Made by a program: the position numbers and the translations under genes
Source: Antitrichia curtipendula
Taxonomy: Eukaryota > Streptophyta > Bryopsida > Hypnales > Leucodontaceae
Length of the DNA: 64,000 nt
Direction of reading: 5' to 3'
Assembly (NCBI GenBank): GCA_951230915.1
Contig: OX579633.1
Location: forward strand, 6,608,145 to 6,672,144
The notes under the pieces: model-generated
Told to the model about the DNA's origin: nothing
The model's input: only the letters and a program-made list of their open reading frames with translations
Databases searched by the model: none
Shown: positions 3,570-56,807 of the stretch, in pieces
Layout: each line of letters opens with the position of its first letter
Position numbering within the stretch: the stretch's first letter is position 1

Positions 3570-5218
3570 TTAACCCCTTAAGGACTGAGGCCTTTTCTCC
3601 ATCAAAACATATCATTACAAAAAATCTCAAACCTCCAGAGGGTCGCTCCAGAGCAACTGAAAGGATCCTACGATAACATTCAAATTTGCTTAAGGATTAT
3701 TTTTTCCCTATAGGCGCTCACTTTGGGCCATGACATTGGATGACTGTCAATGGTTCAAGATCCAAGTAAAAGGTATTAAATAATCAGAATCAAGGTATTG
3801 TAAAGCACCTTAACTGTGATTATTGCACACCTTGTACTCTAACCAAATTTCAGAAAAAGAAACAAATGTTGAAATTAGTCCATTGACATCTACCATCAAT
3901 AGTATTTTGAATGGCAATGTGATAGTCACAGTTCATTGTCGATTGGTGAAAATGAAGGATGAAGTGGTTGATTTTATAGAAAAATCAAATGTTCATGGTG
4001 AATCCTAAAAGGGTATGGGATATTTTGAAGAGAGATCACTCATTGTCAAATTCAAAAATTGTGTTCAAAGTCAAATTTCAAATCCCATTTAGGCATAATA
4101 GAATTAAAAATTTCAAAAATCTTTAAACTCAAAAAAATCGAAGAGTCAAACTAGTTTTCATCTCCAAAAATCCATTTGAGGTTTAGAGACTTCCAACATC
4201 CTTCGCAAAATTCACACAAGCTGACAATGCATTGCACCTAGATTTGTCAGGCTACCTATTTTCGATTAATAGATTGGTTTGGTCACTCTAGAGTGGCCCT
4301 CCTGAGGCCTACAATTTTTTCTAATTTCAAAACCGCCACTTCTATTGCAAAAAGCAAAAAGCTTCAAAAATTGTTTTTTTTGCATATCTAACCATAGGAT
4401 CTTATATTATAATAGTATAAGAATTTATGCAAAAAATTTCAAAAACTTTGACTACATAGATTGCAAGATATTTGCATCCAAAGGAAAAAAAAAAAAAAAT
4501 TTTGCACCTTGCTTGACTAGATTTTTTTGGCTTTGAATCTTCTTAACTTTCATTTTTTATACTATCAGTTTTGATTTTCTAAGTTTTTTTATTCAATACT
4601 TGAGTTGAGAATCTAGGAAAAAAAATTCAAGAGAAAAACACTTAATTTTTATTCATTAAACAATTGTTAAGTAGAAGTAAGTTCAAGATTGAAGGAAAAA
4701 CTAAATCGTTAATAGCTCTAGGATGAAATTGAAATACAATAATCCCAACAATGAGATTGTTCTAACAAGAAAATACAACCTTGTCTAACAAATTTTTGGT
4801 AAAAGTTGTAAACATTGTATTAAAAAATGAATCCTATAAGTTGTTTTTTCGAGAAAATGTGTAGATTGTCTGAAAAAACTAAGATTGGCCATAATTTTCT
4901 CATTACTAGTCCAAATAGAATGAATCTAGATTCAAATGGAGACAAAAATATATGGTTTTAGGAAAATTAAAATAAAATAAATTTTGGCTTTTTGTGATTT
5001 TTTCGTGATGCCTGCCGACCTCCATTTTTGGCTTATTGTGCCATAATTTTTTTTTCCGAGCACCAATTGAAATATAAAAAATTATATTATCCACAAAACT
5101 CTCGCAAAATTGCACATCCTCAAAAAATTTCAAAAAATTTCACTAAAAATTGAGGTCATACGAACCTACCCAGACCCAAATTGTCCCTTGAGGGGACAAA
5201 AGGTTCTTTCGAGGTTAA
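3570..5218 (+). mobile_element. TTAA-family element interrupted by another insertion
   Basis: The left end is ttaaccccttaaggactgag at 3570. The right end closes with ggttaa, the TTAA being at 5215-5218. The first ~40 bases and the stretch from about 4320 onward align with the uninterrupted copy at 10423-11016. The opening (ccatcaaa) jumps to the 'ccgccacttctattgcaaa' segment, so about 700 bases (roughly 3612-4318) were inserted later. Shared internal landmarks are agattgcaagatatttgca, 'actagtccaaatagaatg', 'gagcaccaattgaaatata' and 'cgaacctacccagaccca'. No protein is encoded. Confidence 0.6.
3630..4310. mobile_element. insertion inside the TTAA element, with imperfect inverted ends
   Basis: The ends are imperfect inverted repeats: cctccagagggtcgctccag at the left, against the complement cctcaggagggccactctag at the right. 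The internal part 3985-4190 (gggtatgggatattttgaag, 'catttaggcataatagaatt') recurs inverted at 54790-54960. Neither target duplication nor transposase is visible. Confidence 0.4.
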
Positions 5219-5739
5219 TACTCTAATGCCGAGAATTTGAACAACAAACATAGAGGTTCTAGGAGCTTTTTGACTACAAAACTTCTTGTTCATCCAAACC
5301 AATGCTTGACTTTTTTAAAACCACACTTTTTCTATATGATGAAATTGAGGTAAAATAATATATATTTATAAAAATATAAGCAAAACTATGCAAAAATTCA
5401 AGAAAGGATTCAGTTGCTAAGGCACTAATGATTGTCTTTTTAATAATATTGTTATTTTTCACCCCAATTTTTTTTGCTTGCGGTTCCAAATTTCTGGGAA
5501 ATCCACCATTTTATTTAGATGAAGTTTGCGAAAAGTCAGGGGGAGGAATTCATTGATTGATTTGCTTGAGCTGCAATCCTCCTCGCAATTGAAGTCAAAA
5601 TGGAATTGTATGGATACAACAAAGCTTCGATGCCAAGCAAAGGAAGGAATGATGCGTAGTTTTCAGTAAGAACCATCGAGCTTTCACTGAACCATACACT
5701 TGAAGTTGCACCAAGGTAGGAGGTTCATAATGTGTCCAT
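5219..5739. other. intergenic DNA, nothing recognised
   Basis: A mix of AT-rich sequence and a slightly more balanced segment (5520-5740). No gene or repeat was recognised. The minus-strand frame at 5274-5489 is Lys/Asn/Ile-rich and looks like chance. Confidence 0.4.
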
Positions 5740-5995
5740 TTAAGAGCTGAAAATTAATTTGGGGAGGTTAAACTTCTTGAAATATTTTTCAGTTAAATTT
5801 TCCTTGAAAGACATATGGAATTGGCATCTATCACAAGTCATTTCATATTTTTTGAAGTTTTGTGAAATTAGTTATGAATTTTGAAGTTGAAACACAGTGA
5901 TTACTAAAAGTGTCCACCTCCGGAAATGTACACTATTTGTACATTTTTGTTGCAATGAAAAAGAAAAATGTACTTTTGCGTTAAAGGACGTTTTA
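5740..5995 (-). repeat. dispersed repeat, inverted copy of 16790-17070
   Basis: Shared blocks, read inverted against the second copy, include aagagctga, 'catatggaattggcatcta', 'gttgaaacacagtg', a 'tgtacatt' pair and 'aaatgtacttttg'. The class is unknown and no coding potential is seen. Confidence 0.5.
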
Positions 5996-6024
5996 GAGCT
6001 TGAGCACTTTACAGACCTTCTTCT

Positions 6025-6948
6025 TTAATACTTAAAGTCCTAAGGTCATTTATTTTGTCAAAAAACACTCAAAACTACCATTTTCATTGCAAACAACAAA
6101 AATTTTAAACATTTGTTTCTTTTGCAAATCTAACCATCGGATCTTGCACTAGGCTAGTATGAAAACATCTAGAAGAAATTGCAAAAACTCAAAACAAATC
6201 AATCACAAGATATAAACATTTAAAGTGAAGGAAGGGATTCTTTTTTGCTCCTAGCTTGACTAGATTGTAAGGCTTTCAATCCTCTTTGTAGACTTAAACT
6301 TTTTGTACAATGTATTGTAAATTAAATTTTCATTTTTACGTTGAAAAATTGAGTTGAGGGTTTGGAAAAAAAATTCAAAGAAAAACATTGTGATTTTCAT
6401 TCTTTAAATTTTTTGTTAAGTTAAAACATGTATGTCATAGAAGGAAAAACTAAATTGTTGATAGCTCTAAGATGGAAATGAAACATGTTAATTCCAACAA
6501 CAAGATTGTTGTAAAAAGTAAACTAAAAAATTGTGATAATTGAGTTCAAAAATGAATCATGTGAGTTTATTTTTGAAGAAGATGCTATGATTGTCCAAAA
6601 AACAAGATTCTCCATAAATTTTTCATCACTAGTCCAAATAGAATGGGTTAAAAGTTTTCCATGTAGACAAAAATATTTTCTCTGAAAATTAAATTTAAAA
6701 AAATTATTTCAAATTTTTGTGAGTTTTTTTTGTTGCCCGCCCTTACCTATTTTGATCTTATTGTGGCATAACTTTTTTTTCTTGAGCACCAATTGAAATA
6801 AAAATATTATATTTCAACAAAGCTAATCAATATTTTTATCTTGAAAAAAAGAATTAAAAAATTTTGCCAAAAATTAAGATCATAGATACTCATTCAAACC
6901 TTCAAAGAGTCCCCCACAAAGACTCTTAGGACTTTTATTAGGGGTTAA
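6025..6948 (+). mobile_element. TTAA-family non-autonomous element (924 bp)
   Basis: The element is bounded by TTAA at 6025-6028 and 6945-6948. The left end (ttaatacttaaagtcctaag) is decayed, while the right end reads ttattaggggttaa. Internal landmarks match the other copies: a 'gcaaacaacaaaa' start, 'ggatcttgcactaggctagta', 'tccataaatttttcatcactagtcc' and 'gagcaccaattgaaataa'. There is no open frame above about 60 codons. Confidence 0.7.
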
Positions 6949-9025: not shown

Positions 9026-9720
9026 CCAACCAAATTCTATCTAACTACGTTATGGAATGTGAATGTGGTTGTAGATAGGATTTGCAAATTCGGATTCAGG
9101 TTGCAAGAGTCTATGCCATAGTTTCTATCCAAAGAATAGAATCAATAAAAACAATAACGGTGTGACCGTGAGGCTCTATCCTAGGCTCAATCCAATTGGA
9201 CTCCACATCCCCATTCCAACCAAACTCTAACCGCATTGTACAGTGTGGAGTGCAGTTGTAAATAGGATTTGGGATCTCCAGTTCAAAAACCATAGAGTCA
9301 ATGCTATAGTCTCTATCCAAAGGCCAAAGCCAATAAAAAAAAATACTAGTGTGATTGTGAGACTCTGTCCTTGGTTCAGTCCAAGTAGATCCCACATCCC
9401 CACTCCGACCAAACCCTAACTGAATTGCACAATGTGATTGCGGTTGTAAATAGGATTTAGAAACTTGGATTTTAGAAAGCGAGAAAGTTGATGCCATAGT
9501 TTCTATCCAAAGAATAGAGTCAATAGAAAGAAGAACGGTGTAACCACGAGGCTTTGTCCTAAGCTTAGTCCAAATTGGACCCCACATCCCCACTCCAACC
9601 AAACCCTAACCGTGTTGTGCAATGTGGGATGCCGTTTTCGATAGGATTTAGAAGCTCGAATTCAGAAACCATAGAGCTCGTGCCATAGTCTTTGTCCAAA
9701 GGACAGAGCCAATAAAAAGA
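9026..9720. repeat. tandem array, unit about 189-190 bp, roughly 3.6 copies
   Basis: Homologous landmarks recur at a constant spacing: 'tgtgaccgtgaggctctatcc' at 9161, 9350 and 9539, and 'ccaaccaaaccctaacc' near 9217, 9407 and 9597. Units differ by about 10-15%. A remnant of the unit head lies near 8825. The long minus-strand frame across the array simply reads the repeated unit in shifting frames, since 190 is not a multiple of three, and is not a gene. Confidence 0.85.
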
Positions 9721-10422
9721 AAAGAAAAAAGAAAAGCTTGTAAGTATTCAGGTTCCTGGTTCAACCACCCTTCGAGAGTGGGGGCTTGTGGGGGCCAGAG
9801 ACCACGGGAAAAATCTGAGCCAAAGGAGTTGGAGTGAAACAGAGGCTTCCACATTGCAGCTACGCGCTTCCACCCATATAGGCAGGGTAGGTCCCACCCA
9901 CAAAGGCCCAGGATGAATGAAGAAAAATATCCTGTCCCGATTATCCATCCAACTGACCAACTGAAAGGTCTCCCAGACTGGATGAGAAAGTGTAGTAAAT
10001 ACTAGTTTTAAATGGATGATATTGGTGTGTCGAAATGAAGGAGTCCAGTCAGGAAGGGTGGACTTCCATTCCGTCACCTGGAATCGTAGGAATGAAAAAC
10101 AATAAATAATAATAAACTATAATAATATATAAGTTTGCAATAGTTGCACGTGGAGAATTAGAATTAATGGTGTGCAAAATTTTGGGGGCAGCTTGTGAGA
10201 AGTTGGGGAGGCAAGTTTTGAACTTCTCGAAACTATTATTAAACATTGGACTTGAACTTTTGAAGTTGCTATTAGTTTGACAATGAGGCGAAGCTATCTC
10301 TGAAATGTTATTTTTTCCTATTCACACAAGAGTGAAAGCATCGTGAAACTTGGCCAAGGCAATTTGAACTTGGGAAAACTTAGGAGTTTATTCCCAATTC
10401 CAATACAACATGGAAGTTTGCT
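9721..10422. other. intergenic DNA of moderate GC, nothing recognised
   Basis: More balanced composition (9760-10080) than its surroundings. The minus frames at 9748-10077 and 10049-10246 do not resemble known proteins. This could be part of an older element, but no ends were found. Confidence 0.35.
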
Positions 10423-11016
10423 TTAACCCCTAAAGTCCCAAGGCCTTTGTTCCATCAAAGACCACTCAAAACTGCCATTTCTATTGCAAAGAGCAAAAAA
10501 AATTATTTTCATTTCATTTTATTTTTTCATATCTAAAAATAGAACCTTGTACTAGACTAGTATAAGAATGCATGGAAGAAATTTCAAAAACTGTGACAAC
10601 ATAGATTGCAAGATATTTGCTTTTAAAGTGAAGGAAACAAATTTCTTTTTAAGAAGATGCTTAGATTGCCCAAAAAACAAGATTGTCCATAACTTTCTCA
10701 TTGTTAGTCCAAATAGAATGATTCAAAGCTTCAGATGTAGACCAAAATGTAATATCTGAGAAAAAAAATTAAAAATTAAAAATTTTCAGATTTTTCAGAT
10801 TTTTTGGGGTTGACCCTCGAGTTGCTTTTTGGACTTAAGGTGGCATAATTTTTGCTTTAGAGCACCAGTTGAAATAAAAATTATATTCCTATAAAGCTAA
10901 TGTAGTTTTCTATCTTCAAAAGTGGTTTCAAAAAATCATGTCAAAAATTGAAATCACACAAGCCTACCCAAAATCCCAAGAGTTCTCCGTAGGGACTTTG
11001 GGACTTTAAAGATTAA
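10423..11016 (+). mobile_element. TTAA-family non-autonomous element (594 bp), well-preserved ends
   Basis: Left end ttaacccctaaagtcccaag at 10423. Right end cctttgg-type sequence 'gggactttaaagattaa', complementing to ttaatctttaaagtccc, with TTAA at 11013-11016. This uninterrupted copy gives the clearest order of the family's internal blocks: 'actgccatttctattgcaaa', 'actagactagtataagaatg', 'acatagattgcaagatattt', 'attgtccataactttctcat', 'gagcaccagttgaaataaa' and 'cacaagcctaccca'. No coding capacity is seen. Confidence 0.75.
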
Positions 11017-14762: not shown

Positions 14763-15859
14763 GGCATGCCAATATGGTGCAGCAAAAGACTATTAACCCC
14801 TAAAGGACCACACACCGTTTTTTGACAACATAGCGTTTTTAGGCAGCTCACCACGAATGGAATTTCTATTTTTTTTCTTTGAAATTTTCACATAAGATGT
14901 GCCCGAGGAGTAGCTTTAGGGACCAACAATTTTCATAACTTTTGACCACATGGTTAAAAAGTTATGGTATGATATGTAGTTTTCATTGTTCGGTGGGCAG
15001 CCCGGGCAGCAAAAAAAACTTCTTTAAAAATAATTTTCTAGAGAAATAAAAATTGAAATTGATTCTCTAGATTTATGTGCACATGGAAAGCTTTGAATCA
15101 TTCCACTTTGATTTATGAGATGAAAGTTATGAGGAATTTTAGTTGTGGGTAGTTTGCGGGTAGTTATGGAATCTCTACTCTAAAATAAACTTTGAAGTCC
15201 TTTATTTAACTCAATTTTCAATATTTTGGGAAAAAAATATAAACACAAGGTGTAGATTGTTTATTACAACATTATAATCGTTTGGATTGGCATTTTTCAA
15301 TTCCATAATTAAATACTTAACAATTTAGTGTTTTGAATCATTTTCTACTTCTTTCTACTTACTATTTTTTTCCTATATGTTGTACATTTTCAAATGATCT
15401 GAAAATTTTCAAGCATGTAGCTAATTTGCTTTGAAGAATGAATCCAAAGAGTTACCACCATTTTGGACATTTTTTCATACAAATGTGACCATGTGAAGTG
15501 CAGCTTCCCGATTTTTTGCAGGGACAAAAAAAGGGTTTTTGTCACTTCAAATGCTAATATCTTGCAATCTACATGGTGGAAATTTCTGAATTTTTTTCCA
15601 CATCTTCTCAAACTAGTTTACTACAAGATCCTACGGTCACATGTGTCCAAAAATGTATTTTTTTCCAAAATTTGGTACTTGTACTAGAAATGGCAGTTTG
15701 GGAGCGCTTTTTGTGAAAACATAGTCAAAAACCTTTAGGGGTTAAGATAATTTGGTGCCAACCTCCATGCAAAATCAATGCAAATTCAATATCAAACCTA
15801 GCATGGAGGTTGATATCAAATTAGCTTAATAGCGTTTCTATGCACCATATTGGCATGCC
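14763..15859. mobile_element. foldback MITE split by a TTAA-family insertion
   Basis: The outer ends are ggcatgccaatatggtgca and its complement at 15841-15859. Ignoring the inner insertion (14793-15745), the left arm continues as 'ctattaagataatttgg...ccaacctccatgc'. The right arm (15801-15840) complements to 'gcatagaaacgctattaag' followed by 'ctaatttgatatcaacctc'. The arms pair over about 60 bases. The right arm carries the TTAA target only once (15826-15829), so it serves as the empty site for the inner insertion. Confidence 0.8.
14793..15745 (+). mobile_element. TTAA-family element, second subfamily (953 bp), piggyBac-like target site
   Basis: It starts ttaacccctaaaggaccac and ends acctttaggggttaa. 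TTAA flanks both sides (14793-14796, 15742-15745). Its interior differs from the 10423 copy: it has 'gacaacatagcg', 'cacataagatgtgcccgagg', 'gggcagcccgggcagc' and a 'ttttgcagggacaaaaaaag' block. It is present inverted, as the right half of the 17483-19023 composite. It is inserted in one arm of a foldback repeat whose other arm has a single TTAA, so TTAA is duplicated on insertion, as in piggyBac-type transposition. No transposase is encoded. Confidence 0.85.
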
Positions 15860-15896: not shown

Positions 15897-16462
15897 TTAA
15901 CCCCTAAAACCCCGCTTGTCCCCTCGGGAGACAATTTGGGTCCGGGTAGGTTCCTATTGTCTCAATTTGAAGTGAATTTTTTTGAGGTCTTTTGAGGTTG
16001 TGTAGTTTTGCAAGAGCTTTGTGGATATATAATTTTTGTTTCAATTGGATGCCGGATGAAATGGAGATTGGCGGGCAGTCCAAAACAAATTACAAAAAAT
16101 CAAAATTATTATTTTTGAATTTTTTTCCCTAAAAGATTATGTTTTTACCTATACATGGAGCTTTGATTCATTCTATTTGGACTAGGGATGAGAAAGTTAT
16201 GGACAATCTTAGGTTTTCGGGCAATTTAAGCATCTTCTTGAGAAAAAAACTTTTTGTTCAACTTTGAATGCTAATATCTTCCAATATGTACGGTCAAATT
16301 TGATGAAATTTTTATTGCATGATCTCAGACAAGTTAAGTACAAGATCCTACGGTTGAACTCCCAAGAAAACAAAAAAAATTGGTTTCCATAAATGAACAC
16401 AACAAAAGTGGTAATTTTGAGTGGTTTTTGGCAGAAAACACCCTTGGGGGTTTAGGGGTTAA
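15897..16462 (-). mobile_element. TTAA-family element (566 bp), both ends intact
   Basis: TTAA lies at 15897-15900 and 16459-16462. Left end ttaacccctaaaaccccgc. Right end complements to ttaacccctaaacccccaag. The internal blocks are those of the first subfamily, read in the opposite direction from the 10423 copy ('tttcaattggatgccgga', 'tggactagggatgagaaagt', 'atcttccaatatgtac'). It lies only 37 bases right of the foldback at 14763-15859. Non-coding. Confidence 0.8.
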
Positions 16463-16789: not shown

Positions 16790-17070
16790 TTTTCAAACAA
16801 TAAGGTAGGTGTCTCTGAAAGCGACTTGGCTCTCAAAGCGACCTCTAACACAAAAGTACATTTTATTTTCTTCAATGTACCAACATTGTACATTTCAGGA
16901 GGGTTTAGAAACCACTGCGTTTCAACTTCAAAAATTTGTAACTAATTCCACGAAGGTCCCAAAAATATGAAACGGCTTGGATTAGATGCCAATTCCATTT
17001 TTCTTCCTAGTAAAATTTACTGGAAATTGTTTCAAGGAGATTAGCTTCCCTGAAAATGCAATCAGCTCTT
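16790..17070 (+). repeat. dispersed repeat, inverted partner of 5740-5995
   Basis: Read in reverse it shares, with the first copy, the 'tgtacatttcaggagg / cctccggaaatgtaca' segment, the 'cactgcgtttcaacttcaaa' segment, the 'tagatgccaattccat' segment and 'cagctcttaaa'. Function and class are unknown. Confidence 0.5.
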
Positions 17071-17482
17071 AAAGGATCAGTTTAATAGCCTACTGACTAC
17101 CTTACAATGATTCCTTCTGCTGCAACAAACAGAAGGTGCATTAGTCTTTCAATTAATTGTCTCTATCTTCGGAGAAGCTTCCTCCATGCGTCCTAATAAA
17201 ACTGTTGTTCATGTTGACGATGTTTCTACTCAGCTCTTCAAATTCTCCATGCTCATGGGCACGAAAGACATGTTTCACCTTCCTTAACATAATAATGCCA
17301 AAGTGTCCCACTTCTTGTAAGTTGTGTTCTGTACTTCCTCTAGCTTGCATTCTTATTTATTTGTGGTGACACTGATGGTTCAAGAGATGGATTGAAATAT
17401 TTTATAAATATCCAATTACTGTAAGAGTTGAATAATGCGGGAGCCCTTCAATCCTACTTAATGAATTTTAAATGACATTTGT
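17071..17482. other. intergenic DNA, nothing recognised
   Basis: Overlapping plus and minus frames (17157-17369, 17153-17350) have no recognisable product. No repeat was noticed. Confidence 0.4.
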
Positions 17483-19023
17483 TTAACCCCTAAAGGACCG
17501 TCTGGGCAGGTTCGTATAACCTCAATTTTTAGTGAAGCTTTTAGAGGACGTGCAATTGTATGGACTAGTGATGAGAAAGTTATGGACAATCTTAGTTTTT
17601 TGGGCAATCTAAGCATCTTCTTGAAAAAATAACTTATAGAACTCATTTTTTAATGTAATTTTTATAAATTTTTCAGGAAAATGTGTTAAATAGGGTTTAG
17701 TTTGCATGTTCAAACAATTTAACCATTGGGATTATTGTGTTTCAATTCCATCTTAAAGCTATTAATAATATAGTGTTACCTTCATTTTTGAAACTATTTT
17801 TCCTTAATAAATTTTTAATGAGTGAAAATTAATTGTTTTTTTCCTAGATTTTGAACTTAGCTATTCAATATAAAATATTAGGAAAACATCATCTTTAGTG
17901 CATAAATTTTAAGTTAAGAAGATTCAAAGCCCAAAAATCTAGTTAAACAAGGTGCAAAAAAACTTGTTTTCTTCACTTTAAATGCAAATATCTTGCAATC
18001 TATGTGGTCAAAGTTCCTGAAATTTCTTCCACACATTTTTATACTAGTCTACTATAAGATCCTACGGTTAGATGTAAAAAATAACAGTTTCTAATTTTTT
18101 TTTCTTTGCAATAAAAATGGCAGAGACTATGCTTTCACCAAAACCACTCCAAAACTGCTATTTCTAATACAAGAACCAAATTTTAGAAAAAAAACATTTT
18201 GTAAAAATAAAACTGTAGGATATTGTATTAAACTAGTTTGAGAAGTTGTGGGTAAAATGTCAAAAATTTGTAATAGCATTTGAATTGACAAAAATATTTT
18301 TTTTGTCCCTGCAAAAATCCGGGCAGCTGCATTTCACAAGGTCACATTTGTAAGAAAAAATGTCCAAAGTGGTGGTTACTCTTTGGATTCATTCTTCAAG
18401 GCAAGTTGGCTACATGCTTGAAAAATTTCTGATCATTTAGAATTGTAAAACATATAGGGAAAAAATAGTAAGTAGAAAGAGGTAGGGAATGTTCAAAATA
18501 CTAAATTGTTAAGAATTGAAATACAGAATTGAAAAATGCCAACCCCAACGGTTGTAATGTTGTAATAAATAATCTACACCCAATGTTTTTATTTTTTTTC
18601 AAAAATATTGAAAGTTGAATTAAATATAGGACTTCAAAGTTTATCTTAGAGTAGAGATTCCATAACTACCCTCAAACTAAAACTCCTCATAACTTTCATC
18701 TCATTAATAAAAATGGAATGATTCAAAGCTCCCTACATATAAATCTAAAGAACCAATTTCAAATTTTTATTTTAAAAAAAAGTGATTTTTTAAGAAGTTT
18801 TTTCAGTTGCCTGGGTTGCTCGTCGACCAATTAAAATGACATATCATGCAATAACTTTTTAACCTTGTAGTCAAAAGTTATGAAAGTTGTTGGGCCTTAA
18901 AGCTACTCCTTAGACACATCTTGTGTGAAAATTTCAAAGAAGAAATATAAAAACTCTGGTTGTAGTAAACTGCCCAAAAATCGCTATGTTATCAAAAACG
19001 GTGTTTGGTCCTTTAGGGGTTAA
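17483..19023. mobile_element. composite TTAA element: two subfamilies fused head to head (1541 bp)
   Basis: It is bounded by TTAA at 17483-17486 and 19020-19023, with ttaacccctaaaggaccg at the left and ggtcctttaggggttaa at the right. The left half (to about 18150) matches the first subfamily ('gtatggactagtgatgagaa', 'cttgcaatctatgtggtca'). The right half (about 18150-19023) matches the 14793-15745 element in reverse ('ttttttgtccctgcaaaaa', 'atgtccaaagtggtggt', 'cacatcttgtgtgaaaa'). The outer ends remain a good inverted pair. Non-coding. Confidence 0.75.
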
Positions 19024-19286: not shown

Positions 19287-20218
19287 TTAACTAACCCTTC
19301 AAGTCTCTTTAGGGGAAAAAATGGATTTTGGGCAAGTTCCTATGAGCTAAATTTTTGGTGAAACTTTTTGGAACTTTCTTGTAAGATAGAAAAACTTGAT
19401 TTAATTTCTAGGAATATAATTTTTATTTCAATTGGTGCCTAGGAACAGAAGTTATACCACAATAAGCATATAAATAAACTCAACGGACGCAAAAAAAATC
19501 TACAAAAACTTCAAAAAAAAATTAAATTTTTTTTCCTTCATAGATTATATTTAATTCTACTTTGAAAAGCTTTGATTCATTGCATTTGGATTTGTAATGC
19601 GAAGTTACGGAAAATCTTGTTTTGTGGGCAATCAATTGAAAAAATAATATATAGAATTCATTTTTGAGCTCAATTGTCACATTTTTTCAAAACAAAAAGT
19701 TCCACATTGTTAACTTTGATTATTAGAAATCTCACCTTTGAGATTAAGGTGTTTTAATTCCATCTTTGAACTATTAATGATTTAATTTTTTCCTCTATGA
19801 TGTATCTTTTTTTATTTAAAATCATTTTTTAAAGAATAAAAATCACTTTAGTTTTTTAATCTTCTATTTGTTTTATAACTTTCAACCCAATTTTTCATAA
19901 TAAAAAAATTCAAAATCCAAAATCTACAATACAAAAAATTTAAGTTGAAAAGATTAAAAGTCTCATAAATTAGTTTGCTATGATATTCCAAAACATGATT
20001 TCTTTACTTTGTATGCAGTTATCTTGCAATCTATGTTGCCAATTGAAAGTGTTTGAAATTTTGTCCTCACATTCTCATACTAATCTATTGTTAAATTTTA
20101 CAATTAGATATGCAAAAAAATCCCATTAAATTTTATTTTTTGCTCTTTGTACTAGAAATGACAATTTTAAGCGATTTTTGACAAAAAAAAAAAAAGGCCT
20201 TGGGACTTCGAAGGTTGA
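19287..20218 (-). mobile_element. decayed TTAA-family element
   Basis: The left end at 19287 is ttaactaacccttcaagtc. The right end, 'ccttgggacttcgaaggttga', has lost the last TTAA match (TTGA). Internal landmarks 'ttatttcaattggtgcctag', 'gatttgtaatgcgaagttac', 'cttgcaatctatgttgcc' and 'ctagaaatgacaattttaa' place it in the first subfamily, reversed. Confidence 0.65.
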
Positions 20219-21842
20219 GTAAGTTGTATTGGAAAGTGATACATAGCATCTTGACATTGGATTCAACTAACTTGGCCCTGGCCCTTTCAAAATCTGATGC
20301 TACAATTCAATTTTGACACTACTACCTTAATCCTTGAAAGGTCTTTGGCGTTGCATTATACAACTTGTATTTTGCCTTGTAACTCTTCAAATGTGGTTTA
20401 ATATACAAATTGTATACGTTTTTATTTACTTACTATCATGATCATTAATTTACTTTGTATTGAAAAATATTTGGTCAATATTTTCTAATCAAATATCACC
20501 AAATTCATAATATATTACACTATGCGGCTGCAAAGGGGCTTTGGGGGTACAACCTCTCCCTCACATACGATACTCTCTACGTCACCACCCACAGTAATTC
20601 CAATTCTTCTCCTTGGAAAGAAACGACCCGGTGCGAAGTCGCCCCTTAACCGGTGACCGCGTTCCCGGCCTGTCACACGGTCTCCGCCGTTGTTACAGTC
20701 GTTCAACTGTACCTCCGGCAGCCGAATTATACCGCTTGACTGCGTAATAAGCCAGCCGAAGCTGATGTAAGATTGGATATTTGAGCATACAACTTGCCAA
20801 ACTAAAGAAAAAAAGAAACAGAAGAAAAATAGAAAAAACCCACAAAAAATCCTGAAAAGAATAATTCAGAAAATGCTTGGTTTTGATTTCGTTTGCGGCG
20901 CAGGCGGTTGCAGAGTGCGTGGGCAAAGCCTCCGTCAGGCGATGACTAAGCTTAATAAGTGAAGTTTAAATTACCGGTAGTGGGGCGCGTCGGATTTGAG
21001 GCTCAATGTACAGTACAGTAGAGAGACGCGATTTGATTCCCCACAGGCAGGGGCCGGAAGCTTGAACCTGAGGAGCAAAAAAAGTAGTGGTTTTGGGACG
21101 CAACCTCCACTTCGTACTGTAAAGTAAGTGTGTCTGGGTGTGTTCTGCGGAACTTTCCTTGCGGTGTCCGCGTTCGGAGCATCCCCAGTTGCCCACACGA
21201 CGATGCGATGATGATCAGTCAATTGGGGGGGGGGGGTAGTAAGGAAGGTAGAGTACGATTTGAGTGGAGATGATTAGGTCGCCCAAATGGTCCGCATGTG
21301 CTACTTACTGCTACTACCAGTCGAAGGAGGAAGTCCTCGCCCGCACTGAAACTCGTTTGCAATAGTGGCTAGTCACATCGCGTTCTCCCGTTTCTCTTTA
21401 GTTTTTTTTGCGAAGTCAGATGCTGTTAAGATATTTCCTTTTCCTTTTATGTGTTGAGGTTTTGATTGGTGGGTGACAAGGTGCTCATTTATCTGAGCGC
21501 GAAGAATTGAGAGCGAGTGAGCGAGGAGGTTTGATTGTTTGCCTATCCGATGGTCTCCACCATTTTGTTCTTCATCGTGAGCTTTTCCTTGGTGGGCTCT
21601 GGAATCGTCTCGTAGTGCGCGTGTGTGTGTGTTTTGGTTCTGAGAATGGCGAACAAGTTTGTGGAAAGGGGTTTGTAGCCCGAGTTTGTTGCAAGGTCTT
21701 TGTTTGTTGCCAGACCTTTACAGCCCGCGCGTTCCGCTTGACATGCAAGAGAGTTGCAGGAGAAAGCTCTCGAGCTTCGCCCTTCTCTCCCTCTCCTCCG
21801 TTCTCCTGGCTCCTCCACACCTCTCCCGACGCGTCCTCCGGG
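20219..21842 (+). promoter_or_regulatory. upstream region and 5' leader of the F-box gene
   Basis: Composition rises from AT-rich to about even from 20515 onward, a gene-island shift, with no recognisable gene in the interval. A run of thirteen or so G lies near 21225-21236. The frame of the F-box gene stays open upstream to 21507 but contains no Met before 21843, so 21507-21842 is best read as 5' leader. No TATA position or transcription start can be fixed with confidence. Confidence 0.35.
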
Positions 21843-24085
21843 ATGAGTCACCAGGTGCGCCACTACCAACCCTGCACTAGCCGATTCCGTAGCCACGGCT
21901 TCAATTCCGCATCCCCACCGTCGCCAAGCACGGCCACGGTGGAGGACAAGCTCCCCAGCACGAGCATCACTTGGATGGTGTCCCCTTCGGAGCCCCAGAA
22001 GAAGCTCCGGAGACCCTGTCCCAGCGTGGCAGCCTTTCTCGACCCTTCTCTGTGGCGCTTCCTCCCGGACGACCTCCTGGAGCGAGTGGCGGCCTACATG
22101 CCGTTTCCGAGCTTGTTCCGGTGCCGAGCGGTGAACAAGCGGCTCAAGGACTTCGTTTTCTCCCAGAAGTTCCAGGAGGCGAGGGCGTGCGTGAAAGCGT
22201 GGGAGGAGCTTTGTTGCAAGTCGCAGTACTTGCTGATATTTGCGACGATTAAGGGGGAGAATTTGTGTACGGCGTATGATGCGGGGACGAATCGGTGGCT
22301 GAGGATGCCGCCATTGAAGGGACTTGACCCGAGAGCGAAAGATTGCATCGCTGGTGAGAGAACTAGACTTGCCGGGTTTTTTTGAGAATGTCCTTTTTTT
22401 TGCCCTGTAATTTGCCACGTTCTTTAGCCTGTATCTGAATCGTTGCTCTTTTTTTTTATATAGTTTTTCTTATGTTGTGTATCATGTTCGATATCTTTGT
22501 CTGTTGTTTTGTTCGACCCCGCCCTCGCTTCGGCGTTCTCTGGTGTAGTTCGTTCTGTGTGAAGCTTTTTCACTGTCTAGAGTGCATCCCATTGTGAAGG
22601 TTTTTAATTGACTAGCATGTATCCCATTTTGAAATCTTTTTTTATGTTGACTAGCATTTCCACTGATCCTTTTCGAAGTTTCTTCATTGACTAGCATGTA
22701 TCCCATTTCTAGTAAGTACCGTGTATCCCATTTTGAAGCTTTTCCATCGACTAGCATGTACCCATTTTCACTGAGGAGTATGTATCCCATTTGGAAGCCT
22801 TTTTTGATGTTAACTAGCATGTATCCTATTTCGACTGATCCCATTCTGAAGCTTCTTCATTGACTAGCATGTATCCCATTTCCACTAACTTCCAAGCATC
22901 CCATTTTCAAGGTTTTCCATTTTGAGTAGCATGTAGCCCATTTCCATTGACCTACATTTATCCCATTAGAAGTTTTTCGTTGACCCACCCCTCGTATCCC
23001 ATTTCGAATCTTCTTCCTTGGCTAGCATGTATCCCATTTGCGCTCTCAAACATGTATCTCATTCTGAAGCTTTCCAATTGACTAGCATGGATCCCATTGC
23101 CATCCTCACACGTATCCCATTTTCGAACCTTTTCCGCATACTACCCAATGTTCCTCATTTGCGCTGACAATCAAGTACCTGATCTGGTGCAGGCGATGGA
23201 GGCTTATTATGTTTCCGTGACGTGAACGACCAAGGCGTTGCCAGTCTGTTTGTGTACAACCCCGTCCTCGTGAGCTGCAGAGAGCTCCCTGCCATGCACA
23301 TTGGCAACTCGATGATCCAGAACACCTGGATTTTAACCCACATTATATTCAACCGCTTCTCCAGCTCGTACAAGCTCCTCGTCCTAACCAAACGTACCTG
23401 CCACCAAGCCTGCGCACACATGGAGATTTACGACTCTCTCACCCAAACCTGGTCCGTGGACAACAACTTGTCCGTCATCGAGCGCAAGTACAAGCTGAGC
23501 TACTACCCCCAGGTGGGCGCCTGCTGCGACAACTTCTTCTACTTCGTGGCGAAGGAAGGCATCCTGCGGAGCTCCGTGATGGGCCTAGTGGTCTACGACA
23601 TCTACGAAGGCGTATTCCGGGAGAAGCTCTTGTACCGCTGTGAGCCTCGTTGTCCCGGAAGCAAGATTGAGGTGCAGGTGGTGGAATGCAAAGGGACGGT
23701 TTACATGGTGGTTCGGGAAGATGATTGCAAGGGTACCAAGGGAGTTTCCTTCTGCAGGTTGAACCCTTCAAAAGAGCAGAAGATCGAGGACGCGGTGCTG
23801 TTTGAGAGCTTCTTCGCAAAGTGGGGATCCAAGTTCCCTCGCTATCGATGCGTCTCAGTGAGGGATGAGCTGGGGTTGCTGCTGTATGACAAAAGCTTCC
23901 AAGTGTTGGCCGATGATCTGTCGGAGGAGCTCAAGCTGCCGCCGTGTCCGTTCCAAGGGTTGGATAACTTCGTGCCGTCGACGTCGCTCCTCCCTTGTCG
24001 CAACAAAGCCTTGCACATGTACTATGCAACACAGAATGTGGTCTCGGAGGCGCACTACCTGCCGAATTCCGCGGCAACAGTGTAG
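21843..24085 (+). CDS. F-box/kelch-type protein, two exons, 467 residues
   Basis: Exon 1 is 21843-22353 and exon 2 is 23193-24085. Donor G|GTGAGA and acceptor ggtgcag|GC join a Gly codon and keep the frame, for 468 codons including TAG. The F-box lies at about residues 72-110 (WRFLPDDLLERVAAYMPFPS, then LFRCRAVNKRLKDFVFS). F-box proteins of this kind join an SCF ubiquitin ligase through SKP1 and select substrates with the C-terminal part. That part (about 125-467) has the spaced Trp/Tyr/Gly pattern of an F-box-associated kelch-like beta-propeller (for example AYDAGTNRWLRMPP, EIYDSLTQTWSVD). Length and layout resemble plant single-copy F-box/kelch proteins such as those related to At5g15710; the substrate is unknown. 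The N-terminal 60 residues are Ser/Pro-rich. Coding GC is far higher than in the flanks. Start 21843 is the first Met in frame. No other host gene is adjacent. Confidence 0.85.
22560..23150 (+). repeat. intronic minisatellite built on 'gactagcatgtatcccattt'
   Basis: The single intron (22354-23192) is largely an irregular tandem array. The core gtatcccatt, exact or nearly so, occurs about 17 times between 22580 and 23120, alternating with 'ttgactagcat' and 'gaagcttttcc' spacers at about 25-60 base steps. The splice sites lie outside the array. Because the sequence is open in reverse it gives a spurious minus-strand frame (22482-22844). Confidence 0.85.
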
Positions 24086-25310: not shown

Positions 25311-26942
25311 ATTCAAAAGCAGCATCTGTGTGTGGCTAGGCAGCCGAGCGTTTTGCGTGTGCGCACCACACTTTTGGGTCTGGTTTACGTATTATAAAAT
25401 TTCCACTGTAGTGTCTTCCTCTGAAAGGACAGAGAAGAGGAAGCTGGGTAGCAAGTCTGTGGCTGTCGTCCAGGTCAGTTTTGAGCGCAGCCAAGCTACA
25501 CCGAATAGGGGTATTAAGTGGACCCAAAAAATTAAAGGGACTTCTTGTGGAAAATTGTAGATGTTTGAAACATGATGTACAACTCCCGGACACTTCAATA
25601 GCTATTGACGTACAACAAAGGTAGTTATTTATATAGTGTGTATTGTCGATTAGTTAGTATGGGTCCCCTGAAAACCCCTATTCAATGTAGAATCCATTGG
25701 TTTTCTAAGGTAGGAGCACCCATTTCCCTCCACGTTCCAGAACCCGTTCCCTTTGACTGCCCCCCAATCTGTCCATCAAGTGTCCAAACTCCACCCATCA
25801 CGTGATTTTTGTGGCCCTTGGATTCTATGTGATTTGTATTTGAAAATGGGACCATTGAACATCAGTGTAGGGTGCTTTTTCTTTTTGCACTTTGACCAAG
25901 ATTTTTGAAGATATTTTTTAGAATTCCAGATTTTTTTTATCTTACACTCTCTTATTTGCCTTTCCCTTATGTCTATTTGTTTTCCACACCAGCTTCATAG
26001 TCTACTCCTCATGACTTAAACGGGCGGTTATGTGTGCTCCCACCTTATTGGGAATGGGTTTTTTTTCATTGATAATCTTCGACTGTTCCTTGTAATTCTA
26101 CCTCAAATAGAAACTTTTCCTTAGTCCAGATTTGGAGGGGTCCAGATTCAGTTGAGGCGTTTTGCTTTGACTGGTTCATGGACCGAAGGCGGCGAATTGA
26201 AGGGCCGGAGGGCTGACCGTCTCCAGACAGGGGTGGCTTTTTGAGGGTAAAAGGTTTTCCACAATTCTACGTGTTACTGCTGGAAATGCGTGCGGGTTTT
26301 CGTCGTTGCCGAAGGTTCGGCCCACTTGCGGGGATTTTTTGGGCCTCCGAATGGGTCCACTGCGTCAAGATTCTTGACAAGGGGAAGAAGGCTTGGCTGA
26401 AATCCAGAGGATTCTTTCCCCCCCCCTGTGGCCAACTAATGGGTGCCAATCATGGTTGGCAACGCTCAACCCTAAAAGGCATGAGCGGCATCTTTTCACT
26501 GGTACAACGTGTGTTTTATGATGGTTTTGATGGTGATCATAAAACTTGGGGGTAGAATCCATATTTGTTTTGTTTTGTTTTGTTATGATGAGATCTCCGG
26601 AAACGTGGGTATCCCGGTCGCGTTCTTGGTACTGGTAGGAAGCTCTTTGCAAGGAAAGGTGCACGGGCTTTGTTTCGTGGCGTTTTGACTAACAATGTAA
26701 AAGTTATGAATTTTTGGGTTATTTTTTAGTTAAAAAAATTAGAAAATTACTTTTACTTTTATTTTGACTGTGGAAATGGCACATGGTACACGAGTTAACC
26801 TTTGAAGGATGTTGAGGGAGAAAAGTGGTCAATGGATGACTTCATTGTTCATTGTAGAAAGAAAGAATGCACATATTGGTCCAATTATATATTGAAGTAG
26901 TTTGGGTAACTACCTTGTCATGGGAGGCACATCCTTTATGGT
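25311..26942. other. intergenic DNA of moderate GC, no gene recognised
   Basis: Several overlapping frames exist on both strands (25330-25560, 25605-25805, 26241-26555), but none resembles a known family or is supported by splice signals. An orphan end of the TTAA family (ttaacctttgaaggatg) begins at 26795. Confidence 0.4.
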
Positions 26943-27856
26943 TTAACCTTAAAAGACCAGGGGGGGGGGGGGGAAGGAGATATTCCAAAAACTTTGATTT
27001 TTTGGTATGTTTTTGAAACTTCAACTGTACAAAATTAAAGTAAACTATTTTATCAAAATGTAGAAAAAATTTCAGCCCTTTTCACTGTGTGGATTGAAAG
27101 ATTATAGCATTTGAAGTGAGAAAAAAAACTTTTTTCCAATCCTGCGGAATAGGGTCAGCAAACTTCGGGCTCGTTTGGAGTAAAAATTTTGCTCTACACA
27201 AACATGAGATTTTTGACCATTCATAAGTATATGATATTAGGTTCATTCACCAAAAAAATTTAGAAAAATTATAGAGCCTAAATTATTCTAAATCACCTTG
27301 CAACGCAATGAGGTCAAGTGAGTTGGCAATATACTAGTCATTTTTTTGTGCAATGAGGTAATATTTTATTTGAAATCCAAACAGTGAATATTTAGAGACA
27401 AATATTTGGAATACGTGGAAAAAATTTCAATAATTTTGATTTCACTAATTGCAAAATATTAGGACTTGAAGTTAGAAGAAAATGTTTTTTCTTGAAACTA
27501 CCCCATTATAGCTAACAAAGTTTGACTTCTCTTACAATGTGCTATGGCAACTAAAATTTTTTTTTTTTTGACAATTGTATGCCATATTTTATTAGTTATA
27601 TACATGCCAAATTTTAAAATTTGGTGATTTGTTTTGCAAAAGATTCTCCAAAGATTCCCAAATTGCCCAAGCTGCCCGAAAAGTTCAAGGCAACATAACT
27701 TTTGATCTGGGCTCCCGATCGTAAAAATAATTAGTTTCTCGTAAAGGAGGTATATGTTTACATACTATGTCCGTATTTCATGAGCATTCAATCAAAAAGG
27801 ACCTACCCGAGATTTGTTGTGTATGTTGAACAGACACTTGGTCCTTTAGGGGTTAA
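26943..27856 (+). mobile_element. TTAA-family element, third subfamily (914 bp)
   Basis: Left end ttaaccttaaaagaccag at 26943, followed by a run of about 14 G. Right end ggtcctttaggggttaa, with TTAA at 27853-27856. The interior differs from the other subfamilies ('cctgcggaatagggtcagc', 'cccaagctgcccgaaaag', 'tgatctgggctcccgatcg'), so only the termini are shared. Non-coding. Confidence 0.7.
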
Positions 27857-30299: not shown

Positions 30300-30900
30300 C
30301 TCTAATTTCTAATCTCTATATGTAACTCTAGATTTTTACTTCTAGAGTGCTATCTTTGATTTTTACTTCCACTTTTGACTCTATGTTTGACTTTTACCCT
30401 CGCTATTTCATTCCAAATATTAACTCTAAATTTTTACTCCTAAATTAATCCTAGTATTTTATTCCTAATATTAACTCTAAATTTTTACTCCTAAATTAAT
30501 CCTAGGTTTTTACTCCTAATTTAACTCTAGATTTTTACTCCTAATTTAATCCTAGATTTTTACTCCTAATATTAATTCCAAATTTTTACTTCTAAACTAA
30601 TTCTGAGATATTTGCTTGAGAGTTTGACTCCTAGATTAACTCTAGATTTTTATTCCTAATATTAATTCTAAATTTTTACTTCTAAACTAATTCTGAGATA
30701 TTTGCTTGAGAGTTTGACTCCTATATTAACTCTAGATTTATATTCCTAATATTAATTCTAAATTTTTACTTCTAAACTAATTCTGAGATATTTGCTTGAG
30801 AGTTTGACTCCTATATTAACTCTAGATTTTTATTCCTAAATTAATTCCTAGTTTAGATCCTAGATTCTCCTTCTAACCTAATCCCTAATTTAACACTCTC
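30300..30900 (+). repeat. tandem arrays: about 30-bp units grading into a 90-bp higher-order unit
   Basis: The first part repeats 'ctctaaatttttactcctaa' every ~28-30 bases. From 30601 the segment starting ttctgagatatttgcttgag recurs exactly 90 bases apart at 30601, 30691 and 30781. These three 90-bp units differ by only a few bases, so the higher-order expansion looks recent. Confidence 0.85.
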
Positions 30901-31655: not shown

Positions 31656-32010
31656 CCCACCCTCTAGCTGAACCCACTCCTCCGAATGACTGAGCCCCTC
31701 TCTGGCTGAACCCGACTCCCCCGAATGACTGAGCCCTCCCGGACTATCTCGACTCCCCCGGATGACTAGACTGATTGCTCCGGACGGGACTGAATACCTC
31801 GGATTAGACTGAGCCCCGGACTGAACTGAGCCCCGGATTGAACTGAGCTGGGGAGATTGGGTCCTTGATTTTGATTTTTTCTTCTCTCCAAGGGCTGATT
31901 CTAATGGTTGGTCCTAATAGTTGGTTCTAATGGGCTGTTTTCAAATGGCTGGTCCTAACGGGTTGATTTCTAATGGGCTGCTTCTAACGGGTTGGTTCTA
32001 ACGACCTACA
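31656..32010 (+). repeat. two adjacent short-period degenerate arrays
   Basis: 31656-31860 repeats 'cccgaatgactgagccc' and 'ccccggattgaactgag' with a 17-25 base step. 31880-32010 repeats 'ggttctaatgggctg' / 'ctaacgggttg' with a 15-18 base step. Both are irregular and non-coding. Confidence 0.65.
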
Positions 32011-34395: not shown

Positions 34396-37300
34396 TTATA
34401 GATTGCTACCTATAAGAAGTAGCTTAACTTCATCAAAATTCAGACTTGGTGCATGAATATACTTGTCATCTTCAGAATTTGCCTTGCAAATAAATCTAAA
34501 GACATAATACATATGCTTGCAGTTCACCCATGATTTCCTACTACCAAATACAGTTGTACTCATGGTGATGAAGTCTTTGTAGGTACAAGCAGGGCAGTTT
34601 GAAATTGTGATTCGATAGACCTTTCGGTTGGGAAAGATACTAGACATTAGAGTTGTCACTCTACCATAGCCAGGATATGGAATAACGACTACAGATTCAA
34701 TGATAGCTTTCAAGTTTTGTGTTGTCTCCCATTTGTTGCAGTGGTCAATTGTGGGCGCATTAGGATTACGCCATATGGTCCTATCCAATTACTTTGTGGG
34801 ATGCATATCACCATTAGATGGTTGTAAATCACTATCAAGTTGTTTTGAAAGAAGGAAGAACTTACTTCTACATGTACTCTCTTCATTAAAAATGTGGAGC
34901 ATTGGTTTGCCTAGCTCTTTAGTTTGCAATTGGAATCCTGCTTCCTCCAAAAAAAAGATATCTGATTTGGTGAGATGTGTCCCTATTGCAATAGACCACA
35001 CATTTGGCAAAGGAGGCCAATCATAAATCCACTTGACCTTAGAGCCTCTTGCACAACATATAAGGTCATATGCATAAAACCAAAAATCAAAGTTGATTAT
35101 GGCCTTGGTTCTATATTTTGCCATGCATCCGTTGTAGGTAGGTGCTACTATTCCACTCTTACTTGACTTGTTTATCTTGGCCCCACATTTCTTCTTCATC
35201 CCAACTTGAACTCCGTGGCAAGTCTTTGCTTTTTTTTTACACCTAGCAATGTGCTACAGAAAAAGGTTGCAGTTTGTTTCAAGTACTTTCATAGCATGGG
35301 ACAAAGTATGTAGGGTTCTTTTTCCTGTCTCAACATTGGTGTTGGTGTTGGCATTGATGCGCCTACTTTTGAGCATGCTCTAGTTGACTGAGTCTGAACT
35401 CTCGGTGTAGAAAAGTTCACTGTGTTGTAGCGGTAAGAGTCTTTGTCTGATCCAGATGGCAAATTTAGTTTGTGCTTTGAAGAGCTGAATACTTCTTTAC
35501 CTTCTAAGTGGGGAACTCGTGTGGTGATTAGATGAGCATCTGGTAGTTTGGCAACAGCCTCGGCAAACTTTGCTGGATTTCTGGTTTGTCTTGCAACTCG
35601 AAGGCGAAGTTCATCTAAGTGGGGACCAGTTCCGGATGCATATCCTTGGAGGTATGCCCAATAATTAGTCGATTGGTAAATAGCCTGCATCATGTCATTT
35701 GTAGTGGCCACATACAAGCATGTTCACCTTTTTCCAAACATTTGCAATCATTTGTTGTGAATTGTCTCCGTCAAGTTGCATGAAGGCATTTTGGCTAGCT
35801 CTTTTAAATTCAAATTATACACCAACAACAACAATTTTGAGTGATGCTACAAGGCTTCCTTTATTCTGAAATTCATGTTTCAATACTAAGAATTGTGTAT
35901 GTTCAGTTTAAGTTTGTGCAAATTCTATACATGTGAAGGAAAATAATTTAGTAGAAACCACATATACATTTTGAACACTTAAACAACTTATTTGTGAATA
36001 GAAGCTAATAATCAAGAAAGAAATTGAAATTGAAGGAGGCATGTGCTTTGCCAATACTAAAAATCCACCCTACTGCCGATATCGGAAGTGCCAAAAACCA
36101 AGCAAATCATCCAGTTCTTTGAGAGAATCCTCTAAGGCAACCCTTGAAGAAAGCCACCAACACTTGATTCCAAGGCATTTTTCTTCTGCTTCTACCATTG
36201 ACTTTGCATTCTTGTATTGTTTGCAGAGCTTCTTTTGAGTTTCTTGGAACTCCAATTGAATGAATTTTTCTGTATGTCTATTTAGCAAAGTTGTCCAATG
36301 AAGTAAATAAGAGCGCTTTCGATCTTGCATTGGTTCTTGCTTGTTGCCACCTCCATATACCACATGAACAACATGCCAGTTGGCCATTGCACTGTTAGCC
36401 ATAAAACCCTTGAAATTTGAAGAGGAAATCCTATGGTGCGCTATGACGGAGTTAAGGGATTCCACATTTGTTCTTGCGCCTGAGCATCCTTGCTCATCAT
36501 GTCGCAGACGCAAATAGTTTGTACTCGACAAAATTCAGGGTTGTATACATGGATAGCCATTGATGTCTATCCTTTCACCCTCTTTATGTGATTGAACATG
36601 CACCAAGAATTCTGCAAGTCTCCACCAGGTTGCATTTGCCTTACCAAATCCACTCCACTTCCCGGACCTTCCTCAAACATCTTAAAAAGATAAGCCTTAT
36701 CTTTACTTTGGCCTGGAAACATGCTATTTTGAATAAATGAATAGGTACTTCTCATTTTCAATGAGATGATGTTGTCAATGGGTTTCCTACCTATATATTG
36801 ACGGAAACTAGAGATGGTATTTTGAATATTTGGTGACCTGAGTATCTAAATTTGTCCATGATAGCCTCAAGGGCCTCTCCGTAAAGGGGCTTCCAGTGCC
36901 TTTCTAGTACTTCTTCTCCGAACAATTCTAATGAAAAAAATTCCTTACTAGTAGCAAGTCAAATGGCCAAATTTGTTGCAATAGGTGTTTTTGACACTTC
37001 TTGACTAATCAATCCTGTTGTTCGATCAACAAAGCCACAACATTATTCAATCAATAGAACCTACGGGATCACTAGAAGAAAACTGCATTACATTCCTTGA
37101 AAACGTGTCACTTGGTTTTTGTTGAGTTCCCGTTTCAAAACTCATTAGAAACGCAAAAAAACGCACTTTTTTGCATTTTGATTGCGTTTTGAAACGGGAA
37201 CTCAACAAAAACCAAGTGACGCGTTTTCAAGGAATGTAACACAATTTTCTTCTAGTGGATGATCATAAATACCAATGTGAGTACAAGCTCTGAGAAGGCC

Positions 37301-55880: not shown

Positions 55881-55887
55881 CTTGCAT

Positions 55888-56807
55888 AAATCCTAAAAGA
55901 CCAAGAATTCATTTGGAGACTCTTGAAGGCTTAGGCATGTTCCTATGATCACAATTTTTGGCATGATTTTTTGAAACTAGTTTTTGAAGATGTAAAAGTT
56001 CATTAGCTTTTTGAGAATATAATTTTTATTTGAATAGGGGCTCATCACGGGAGCAAAAGTTATGCTATCAAAAGGTCAAAATGGAAATCATCAACACCAA
56101 AGAAATCACAAAATCTCAACAATAAATTTGTGAAGTTTTTGTGTACATAGAAAGCTTTGATTCATTTTATTTAAACTAATGATGAGAAAGTTATGGAGAA
56201 TCTTGTTTTGGAGGCAATCAAAAATATTTTCCTTAAAAAATAACTTATAAGACCCATTTATGAACTCAATTTTTACAATTTTTAGAAGAGAATTGCACAT
56301 AGTTTATTTTTCTTGCTTACACAATTTTATTGTTGGGATTAGTGTGCTCCAATTCCATCTTAGAGTTATTTAAAAATTTAGATTTTTCCTCAAGCTCATA
56401 CCTACTTCTACTTAACAATTCTCTTAAGAATGAAAATCAATTTTATTTCTTGTGAATTTTTTCAAAAGAGTCTTAACTCAATTTTTCAACATACAAAAAA
56501 ATTTATTCAAAATTTTATTTGCAAAATTTTCAAATTAAGAAGATTCAAAGTCACAAAATCTAATTAAGACAAGGTTTAAGAAGAAACATTTTCTTCACTG
56601 TAAATGCAAATATCATGCAATCTCCATAATGAAAGTTTTTGAAATTTCTTCCATATAATCTCATGCTAGTTGACTAGTTGAGTGCAAGACCCTATGGCTG
56701 GATATGAAAAAAAAATATTAAATTTTTTTTTCCACTTTGCAATAGAAATGGCAGTTTTGAATGTTTTTGGAGGATAAAAGGGGCCTTGGTCCTTCAAAGA
56801 CCATTAA
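55888..56807 (-). mobile_element. TTAA-family element, left end decayed (~920 bp)
   Basis: The right end is ccttggtccttcaaagaccattaa, with TTAA at 56804-56807. The left end (tcctaaaagaccaagaattc) lacks the TTAA. Interior blocks 'gagaatataatttttatttg', 'aaactaatgatgagaaag', 'aaatgcaaatatcatgcaat' and 'tgcaatagaaatggcagttt' follow first-subfamily order, reversed. Confidence 0.65.

Follow-up and report, generated by a model that had tools for sequence, protein, structure and literature searches.

The element at positions 14793-15745 (forward strand, both TTAA copies included; c4 below) is almost certainly an old, internally deleted, MITE-like non-autonomous copy of a piggyBac-superfamily transposon in a moss, Antitrichia curtipendula. 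It lies in a 64,000-nucleotide stretch (the window, C1:6608145-6672144) of the 400-Mb genome assembly that we searched, and is identified by its ends, whose outermost 18 bases are identical to those of a transposase-bearing element, and by its homology to 11.9-kb and 7-kb elements of this kind. An earlier reading of the letters alone (the sequence-only reading) had placed here an element with inverted ends, set in one arm of a foldback repeat, and this description is borne out. The left end is TTAACCCCTAAAGGACC and the right end CCTTTAGGGGTTAA; counting in the TTAA, 14 terminal bases are exactly complementary, and past base 14 the two ends diverge (...AAAGGACCA on the left and ...AAAGGTTTT on the right). 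As that reading also stated, c4 carries no transposase, its longest open reading frame having 81 codons and the six frames of the window giving no piggyBac profile hit; this is expected of a non-autonomous copy and is not a defining property of the superfamily.

The left arm of the foldback consists of an outer part (14763-14796, forward strand), which runs through the left TTAA and forms a 34-nt inverted repeat with 15826-15859 (85%), and an inner part (15742-15770, forward strand), which starts at the right TTAA and forms a 29-nt inverted repeat with 15801-15829 (86%). The opposite arm (15801-15859, reverse strand) is indeed the empty site, with a single TTAA, that had been recognised there: the left flank of c4, one TTAA and the right flank, when joined, match it without gaps at 50 of 59 positions (BLAST E 1.1e-13). 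A 60-base probe of the joined flanks scores 50/60 at this arm, and 34/60 at the next best place in the window when the probe's own two source places are left out. Five neighbouring cut positions score equally at the junction. Since TTAA is its own reverse complement, the c4 empty site fits a duplication of 0, 2 or 4 bp; this site could not by itself establish the claim that TTAA is duplicated upon insertion, which stands, at 4 bp, through copies inserted at ATAA.

The proposed search of the genome with the 17-bp termini yields 13,737 matches to TTAACCCCTAAAGGACC at no more than one mismatch (6,880 and 6,857 on the two strands), against 0 and 1 for the reversed, uncomplemented control. With the outer T replaced and the rest of the motif unchanged there are 208 matches (109 + 99) among the 13,737 near matches, and none for the control. 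The sample for duplication length comprised 20 loci from the first 100 or so of these 208 outer-base variants, all on the forward strand, 18 on C1 and two on C2. In two of them, L054 and L059, the 13-bp ends are perfect at either side and the order is ATAA-element-ATAA; because this target is not palindromic, the two perfect-ended copies fix the duplication length at 4 bp. ATAA is described as a known second target of piggyBac (PMC8634313, in part). At eight further loci (L052, L060, L062, L064, L065, L067, L068 and L070) the partner end is TTAA, and because these partner ends have one to four mismatches in 13 we read the odd outer base as a later mutation, a picture that a 2-bp TA model predicts as well. 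The other ten have no convincing partner; the likely one of L055 has TTTT, which like the eight counts against the 4-bp reading, and those of L053 and L063 are weak candidates with TTAA.

When the flanks of elements in the window and at fetched loci were joined, 5 of 29 found a match that spans the junction, and for each of the five at least one such match has the 4-mer ungapped. The comparison of flanks with empty sites that had been suggested thus gives spanning matches, with TTAA itself in register only for c4. The inner element of L012, which is nested in another, matches L044 at 79% over 320 columns, with TAAA in register within TTTTAAAAA and TTAA one base off. A paralogous site in the window, 56912-57118 (reverse strand; 82% over 207 columns), is empty of the 7-kb L047 element and has CTAA in place of the TTAA of the filled site. 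Two cases are old and weak: the flanks of a related element with TTAA at both ends (c12, 26943-27856) match L026 at 70% over 264 columns with TTAT in register, and those of L018 match two window stretches at 67-69%, with ATGA in one and the junction gapped in the other. The L018 sites come from a second repeat family, which adjoins elements in the window (5739-5999 and 16829-17073, 74% alike). The spanning match of L010 (E 0.002, gapped) fell under the cut-off and was dropped, as was, on alignment, the element c2 considered as a second empty-site case.

Larger copies with the same ends and a transposase, which the sequence-only reading had proposed to look for, were found, at 7.0 and 11.9 kb and with PF13843 (DDE_Tnp_1_7). 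The first is a 6,990-bp element, L041:1684-8673, in which TTAACCCCTAAAGGACC at the left end and TTAACCCCTAAAGTTCC at the right enclose a 967-codon frame. Its predicted protein (P0170) has all three acidic motifs and matches PF13843 at E 1.6e-77, the solved piggyBat transposase at E 1.1e-21 and the solved piggyBac transposase at E 2.9e-20. Two other copies of it, L047 (6,997 bp, on C9) and L049 (7,216 bp, on C5), have an interrupted transposase frame; the three are 99.1-99.4% identical in pairs, have identical end bases and sit at unrelated TTAA sites. The second is an 11,879-bp element read to both its ends (L048/L050; left TTAACCCCTAAAGGACCAAA, right TTAACCCCTAAAGGTTTTGG), whose 636-codon frame encodes a predicted DDD transposase (PF13843, E 4.7e-77). 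L043/L051 is another copy, with 99.2-99.3% identity along stretches of 6.2 and 4.3 kb, of which the right end was not reached; the possibility that the terminal repeat at L043 is the end of a neighbouring element was rejected, as L048 has the same 6 kb from that end. Within the 11.9-kb element lies an array of tandem repeats of about 146 bp (L043:65-1505, reverse strand; L048:6546-7089), which apparently differs in length between these two copies. A third complete element, of 5,161 bp (L045), has somewhat different ends (TTAACCCCTAAACGACG and TTAACCCTTAAACGACG) and a 781-codon PF13843 frame, so that three complete transposase-bearing elements were measured, at 5.2, 7.0 and 11.9 kb. Beyond the TTAA, the number of identical end bases is 13-15 in the window element c6 and in L012-L018, 10 in c4 and the 11.9-kb element, 9 in the 7-kb element and 3 in L045; all begin with CCC, as had been claimed for the element proper.

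The termini of c4 and of the 11.9-kb element agree in 18 of 18 bases at each end, including the tails GGACCA and GGTTTT, in which the two ends are unlike; the two ends of the 11.9-kb element also diverge from each other after 14 bases. From the ends the homology runs inward, positions 1-216 of c4 matching this element over 216 bp at 72.7% (E 7e-30) and positions 577-740 over 168 columns at 69.6% (E 7e-11). Against the 7-kb element of L041, positions 1-54 match at 81% and 574-953 at 68% (E 3e-31). The transposase-coding middle is missing from c4, and the middle that c4 has (about 217-573) gave no reported match to either the 7-kb or the 11.9-kb element. Because both ends match the 11.9-kb element, the homology extends inward and the coding middle is absent, c4 is a non-autonomous derivative of a transposase-bearing piggyBac lineage and does not merely share a similar target with it. 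A recent simple deletion of the copies that we read cannot account for c4, as the outer parts are only 68-73% alike beyond the first 54 bases. Copies of family-A type agree with the 7-kb element at their outermost ends and in part of the right subterminal region, examples being L013 (704-922, 68%) and c2 (27-128, 72%).

A profile search with PF13843 of the moss's own genome found at least 116 loci over the family cut-off (116 of 907 candidates were scored, and all 116 exceeded it), with scores of 242-276 bits and nearly all spanning the whole domain; among the control genomes, 0 of 14 were positive. Twenty transposase frames were compared, from 20 stretches in which two genes occur twice (L029/L045 and L036/L046). 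At 60% identity they form seven groups, and since the groups are only 26-55% identical to each other, several old lineages coexist. All three acidic motifs (DE; DNFF, DNWF or DNYF; GVD) are found by a simple pattern in 12 of the 20 frames. The frame of L049 has N in place of the second D, the first match in L039 looks spurious, and L031, L033, L034, L038, L040 and L042 miss at least one motif, some being truncated or outside the pattern. The sequence TTAACCCCTCAACGCCCC lies downstream of four other transposase loci (L031, L032, L035 and L040). Exact terminal repeats next to the transposase genes at L036/L046 and at L042 were assigned to neighbouring elements and not counted as their own ends.

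The earlier inference of the superfamily, made where no transposase was present, thus has behind it a PF13843 transposase in same-ended elements and the homology of c4 to both ends of one of them. The elements use a TTAA target with a 4-bp duplication, as the piggyBac superfamily does, and the same-ended relatives L041, L045 and L048 encode predicted DDD transposases of the DDE_Tnp_1_7 family. Sola3 elements also duplicate TTAA and have a Sola transposase; the transposase linked to the ends here is PF13843. Inverted ends of 12-19 bp with a CC[C/T]T motif, given for the superfamily in the relevant part of PMC2872659, are likewise found in the family, those of c4 itself being too short. By analogy with known piggyBac biochemistry, the transposase of a related element would have bound the TTAACCCCTAAAGG ends in trans, and c4 would have been excised through 4-nt TTAA overhangs and inserted at another TTAA in the manner of piggyBac; excision would presumably have been seamless.

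The same biochemistry offers a different history for the foldback, in which the element is older than the duplication and one arm was later emptied precisely, the opposite arm being an excised site; piggyBac is described as restoring TTAA upon excision (PMC7351741; PMC8086355; both in part). We consider this unlikely, as it requires an additional step and the sequence offers nothing in its favour. Three other superfamilies that might account for the ends are far less probable still. The PF13843 transposase linked to the ends speaks against Kolobok, the other superfamily stated to duplicate TTAA, which has the target in its favour and is present in some algae but has ends in 5'-RR (PMC9587614, in part), against 5'-CCCC here; we give it very little credence. 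As little can be given to a Tc1/mariner-type element with a TA duplication, ends in ACCCC... and a preference for TTAA. The single empty site of c4 is compatible with such an element through its palindromy, as is the TTAA at the partner end in 8 of the 20 variant loci; against it, ATAA...ATAA in L054 and L059 is a duplication of 4 bp and not a 2-bp TA, the transposase linked to these ends is that of piggyBac, and the described Tc1 elements of mosses end in CAGT (PMC4054914). A PIF/Harbinger (Tourist) MITE with a 3-bp TTA or TAA duplication is the least credible, the use of TAA/TTA by Tourist MITEs (PMC10004981, in part) being set against the 4-bp duplication and the piggyBac transposase within same-ended elements.

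The piggyBac-type elements represented by c4 are numerous in the window. At up to three mismatches the end motif has 13 matches, where 0.15 are expected and none of 100 shuffles reaches 13, and TTAA precedes CCCCTAAAGGACC in 4/4 cases, CCCCTAAAG in 6/8 and CCCCTAA in 11/15. Self-comparison of the window reveals about a dozen related copies, mostly of 560-1,020 bp and typically 66-82% alike over long stretches; by our intervals, element copies cover about 18% of the window, a share of repeats that can now be named. None of them codes, the longest frame per copy being 54-105 codons. Of other copies said to have TTAA at both ends, the six named positions (6025, 10423, 15897, 17483, 26943 and 3570) do each start with TTAA; the claim falls short for 3570-5218, which is not one simple element, a separate family-A copy of about 930 bp (4288-5218, forward strand, with an approximate and degraded left end) occupying its right part. 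The family-A element c2 (6025-6948, forward strand) has TTAA at both ends; c3 (10423-11016, forward strand) is a shortened family-A element with a right end that is degenerate yet retains TTAA; and c5 (15897-16462), a related element, has TTAACCCCTAAA at both ends. A longer related element (53750-55594) begins with TTAACCCC and has a degenerate right end with TTAA. Mutated ends occur in c7 (about 19296-20220) and in c11, an old family-A copy (55886-56807, reverse strand) with ATAA at its left end and TTAA at its right, one end in each thus being without TTAA. A coding origin of the family-A interior was considered and dropped, the majority consensus being without a frame over 81 codons. Elements also nest in or abut each other at TTAA sites (26930-26946; L012:27-1605), and the left flank of c12 resembles the end of another element.

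The element c6 (17483-19023) joins two different elements head to head: positions 17483-18124 are a family-A copy and positions 18125-19023 a c4-like one (82% identical to c4), and each lacks its inner terminus. Because the ends of the composite are perfect over 17 bp, with TTAA included on both sides, it may have transposed as one unit. A flanking palindrome around c6 was dropped as a candidate, 934 of 20,000 random TTAA pairs matching its score.

Direct searches of the window for piggyBac coding sequence were negative: a profile built from the 122 query sequences reached at best E 2.5 in its six frames, and the best tblastn hit of the same 122 piggyBac proteins and fragments had E 0.009, which is not significant for so many queries. 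In Pfam, ten short element frames yielded one match (E 0.15, nothing of note), and Rfam gave none for the window. Neither the 17-bp end nor a 20-bp internal word was matched in viral contigs, where a piggyBac-like fragment gave 29 pattern matches, none confirmed, and c4 had no match among plasmids. In a broad piggyBac protein search, those of the best 120 of 1,538 hits that have a visible species name are from insects.

With piggyBac of Trichoplusia ni and its superfamily the moss elements share the TTAA target, the 4-bp duplication (also at ATAA), the CCC...GGG ends and the predicted DDD PF13843 transposase; unlike the superfamily examples compared, they have a moss as host. They are long, at 5.2, 7.0 and 11.9 kb as against 2.23-3.52 kb for the bee elements of PMC10140906 (in part), and the P0170 transposase is distant from that of the moth element (E 2.9e-20). 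By description, the closest analogue among the systems compared is the CMITEs of coral (PMC2872659, in part), which are non-autonomous, duplicate TTAA and have CCC ends of 13-14 bp, and of which one family is connected with a piggyBac-like transposon in the coral's own genome and an empty allele was found. The CMITEs are about 100 bp, whereas the moss copies are mostly 560-1,020 bp and, unlike them, have long subterminal stretches in common with transposase-bearing elements. The statement that piggyBac is not normally reported from land plants holds in part, the superfamily being not wholly unreported there: the repeat table of the fern Ceratopteris counts 1,230 PiggyBac elements (PMC6890710), PiggyBac is listed among angiosperm MITE superfamilies (PMC10004981), and it is mentioned for 'plants' without detail (PMC8086355, PMC10140906). 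In the parts of the fern and angiosperm papers covered, these entries share the name and are counts or a list only, without elements, ends, transposase or empty sites. Among the matches listed from titles and abstract starts of the open-access literature there was no native moss piggyBac family; one moss paper uses the word 'piggybacking' (PMC10619864), and another source, in the part covered, discusses insect piggyBac as a tool that had still to be tried in Physcomitrella (PMC5505980). What is new here is a piggyBac family member in a host lineage with sparse documentation, where the transposase-bearing elements are unusually long and the non-autonomous copies very numerous.

We lean towards the view that piggyBac is active and of major importance in this moss, now or until very recently: deeply diverged lineages would exist side by side, some with an unbroken frame and copies about 99% alike, in unusually long elements of 5-12 kb, and would mobilise thousands of non-autonomous copies. 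If so, a land plant would harbour a piggyBac system that is active in nature. The piggyBac transposon, taken from a moth, serves widely as a tool of genome engineering; the literature covered gives only a vague account of where it is native among land plants. At the sequence level the moss genome has the full set of transposase genes, near-identical elements, 4-bp duplications, empty sites and a large non-autonomous population, and two questions become testable: whether the piggyBac elements of mosses still transpose, and whether they came by descent or by horizontal transfer.

The window also holds an F-box/kelch gene (21477-24085) in two exon-like frames, of which that at 23183-24085 is 85% identical to a protein of the moss Ceratodon purpureus and up to 97% identical to environmental proteins. 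The frames at 36070-36534 and 34789-35253 (reverse strand) have no convincing Pfam match; the former has 33 relatives in environmental data, one cluster of them with 197 members, which may signal a mobile element. A near-perfect hairpin lies at 37070-37257, with 91-nt arms that are 90% complementary and a 6-nt loop. Tandem arrays occupy 9056-9723 (period about 189 bp), 22558-23135 (about 35-173 bp), 30404-30847 (about 25-101 bp) and 31662-32004 (about 14-43 bp).
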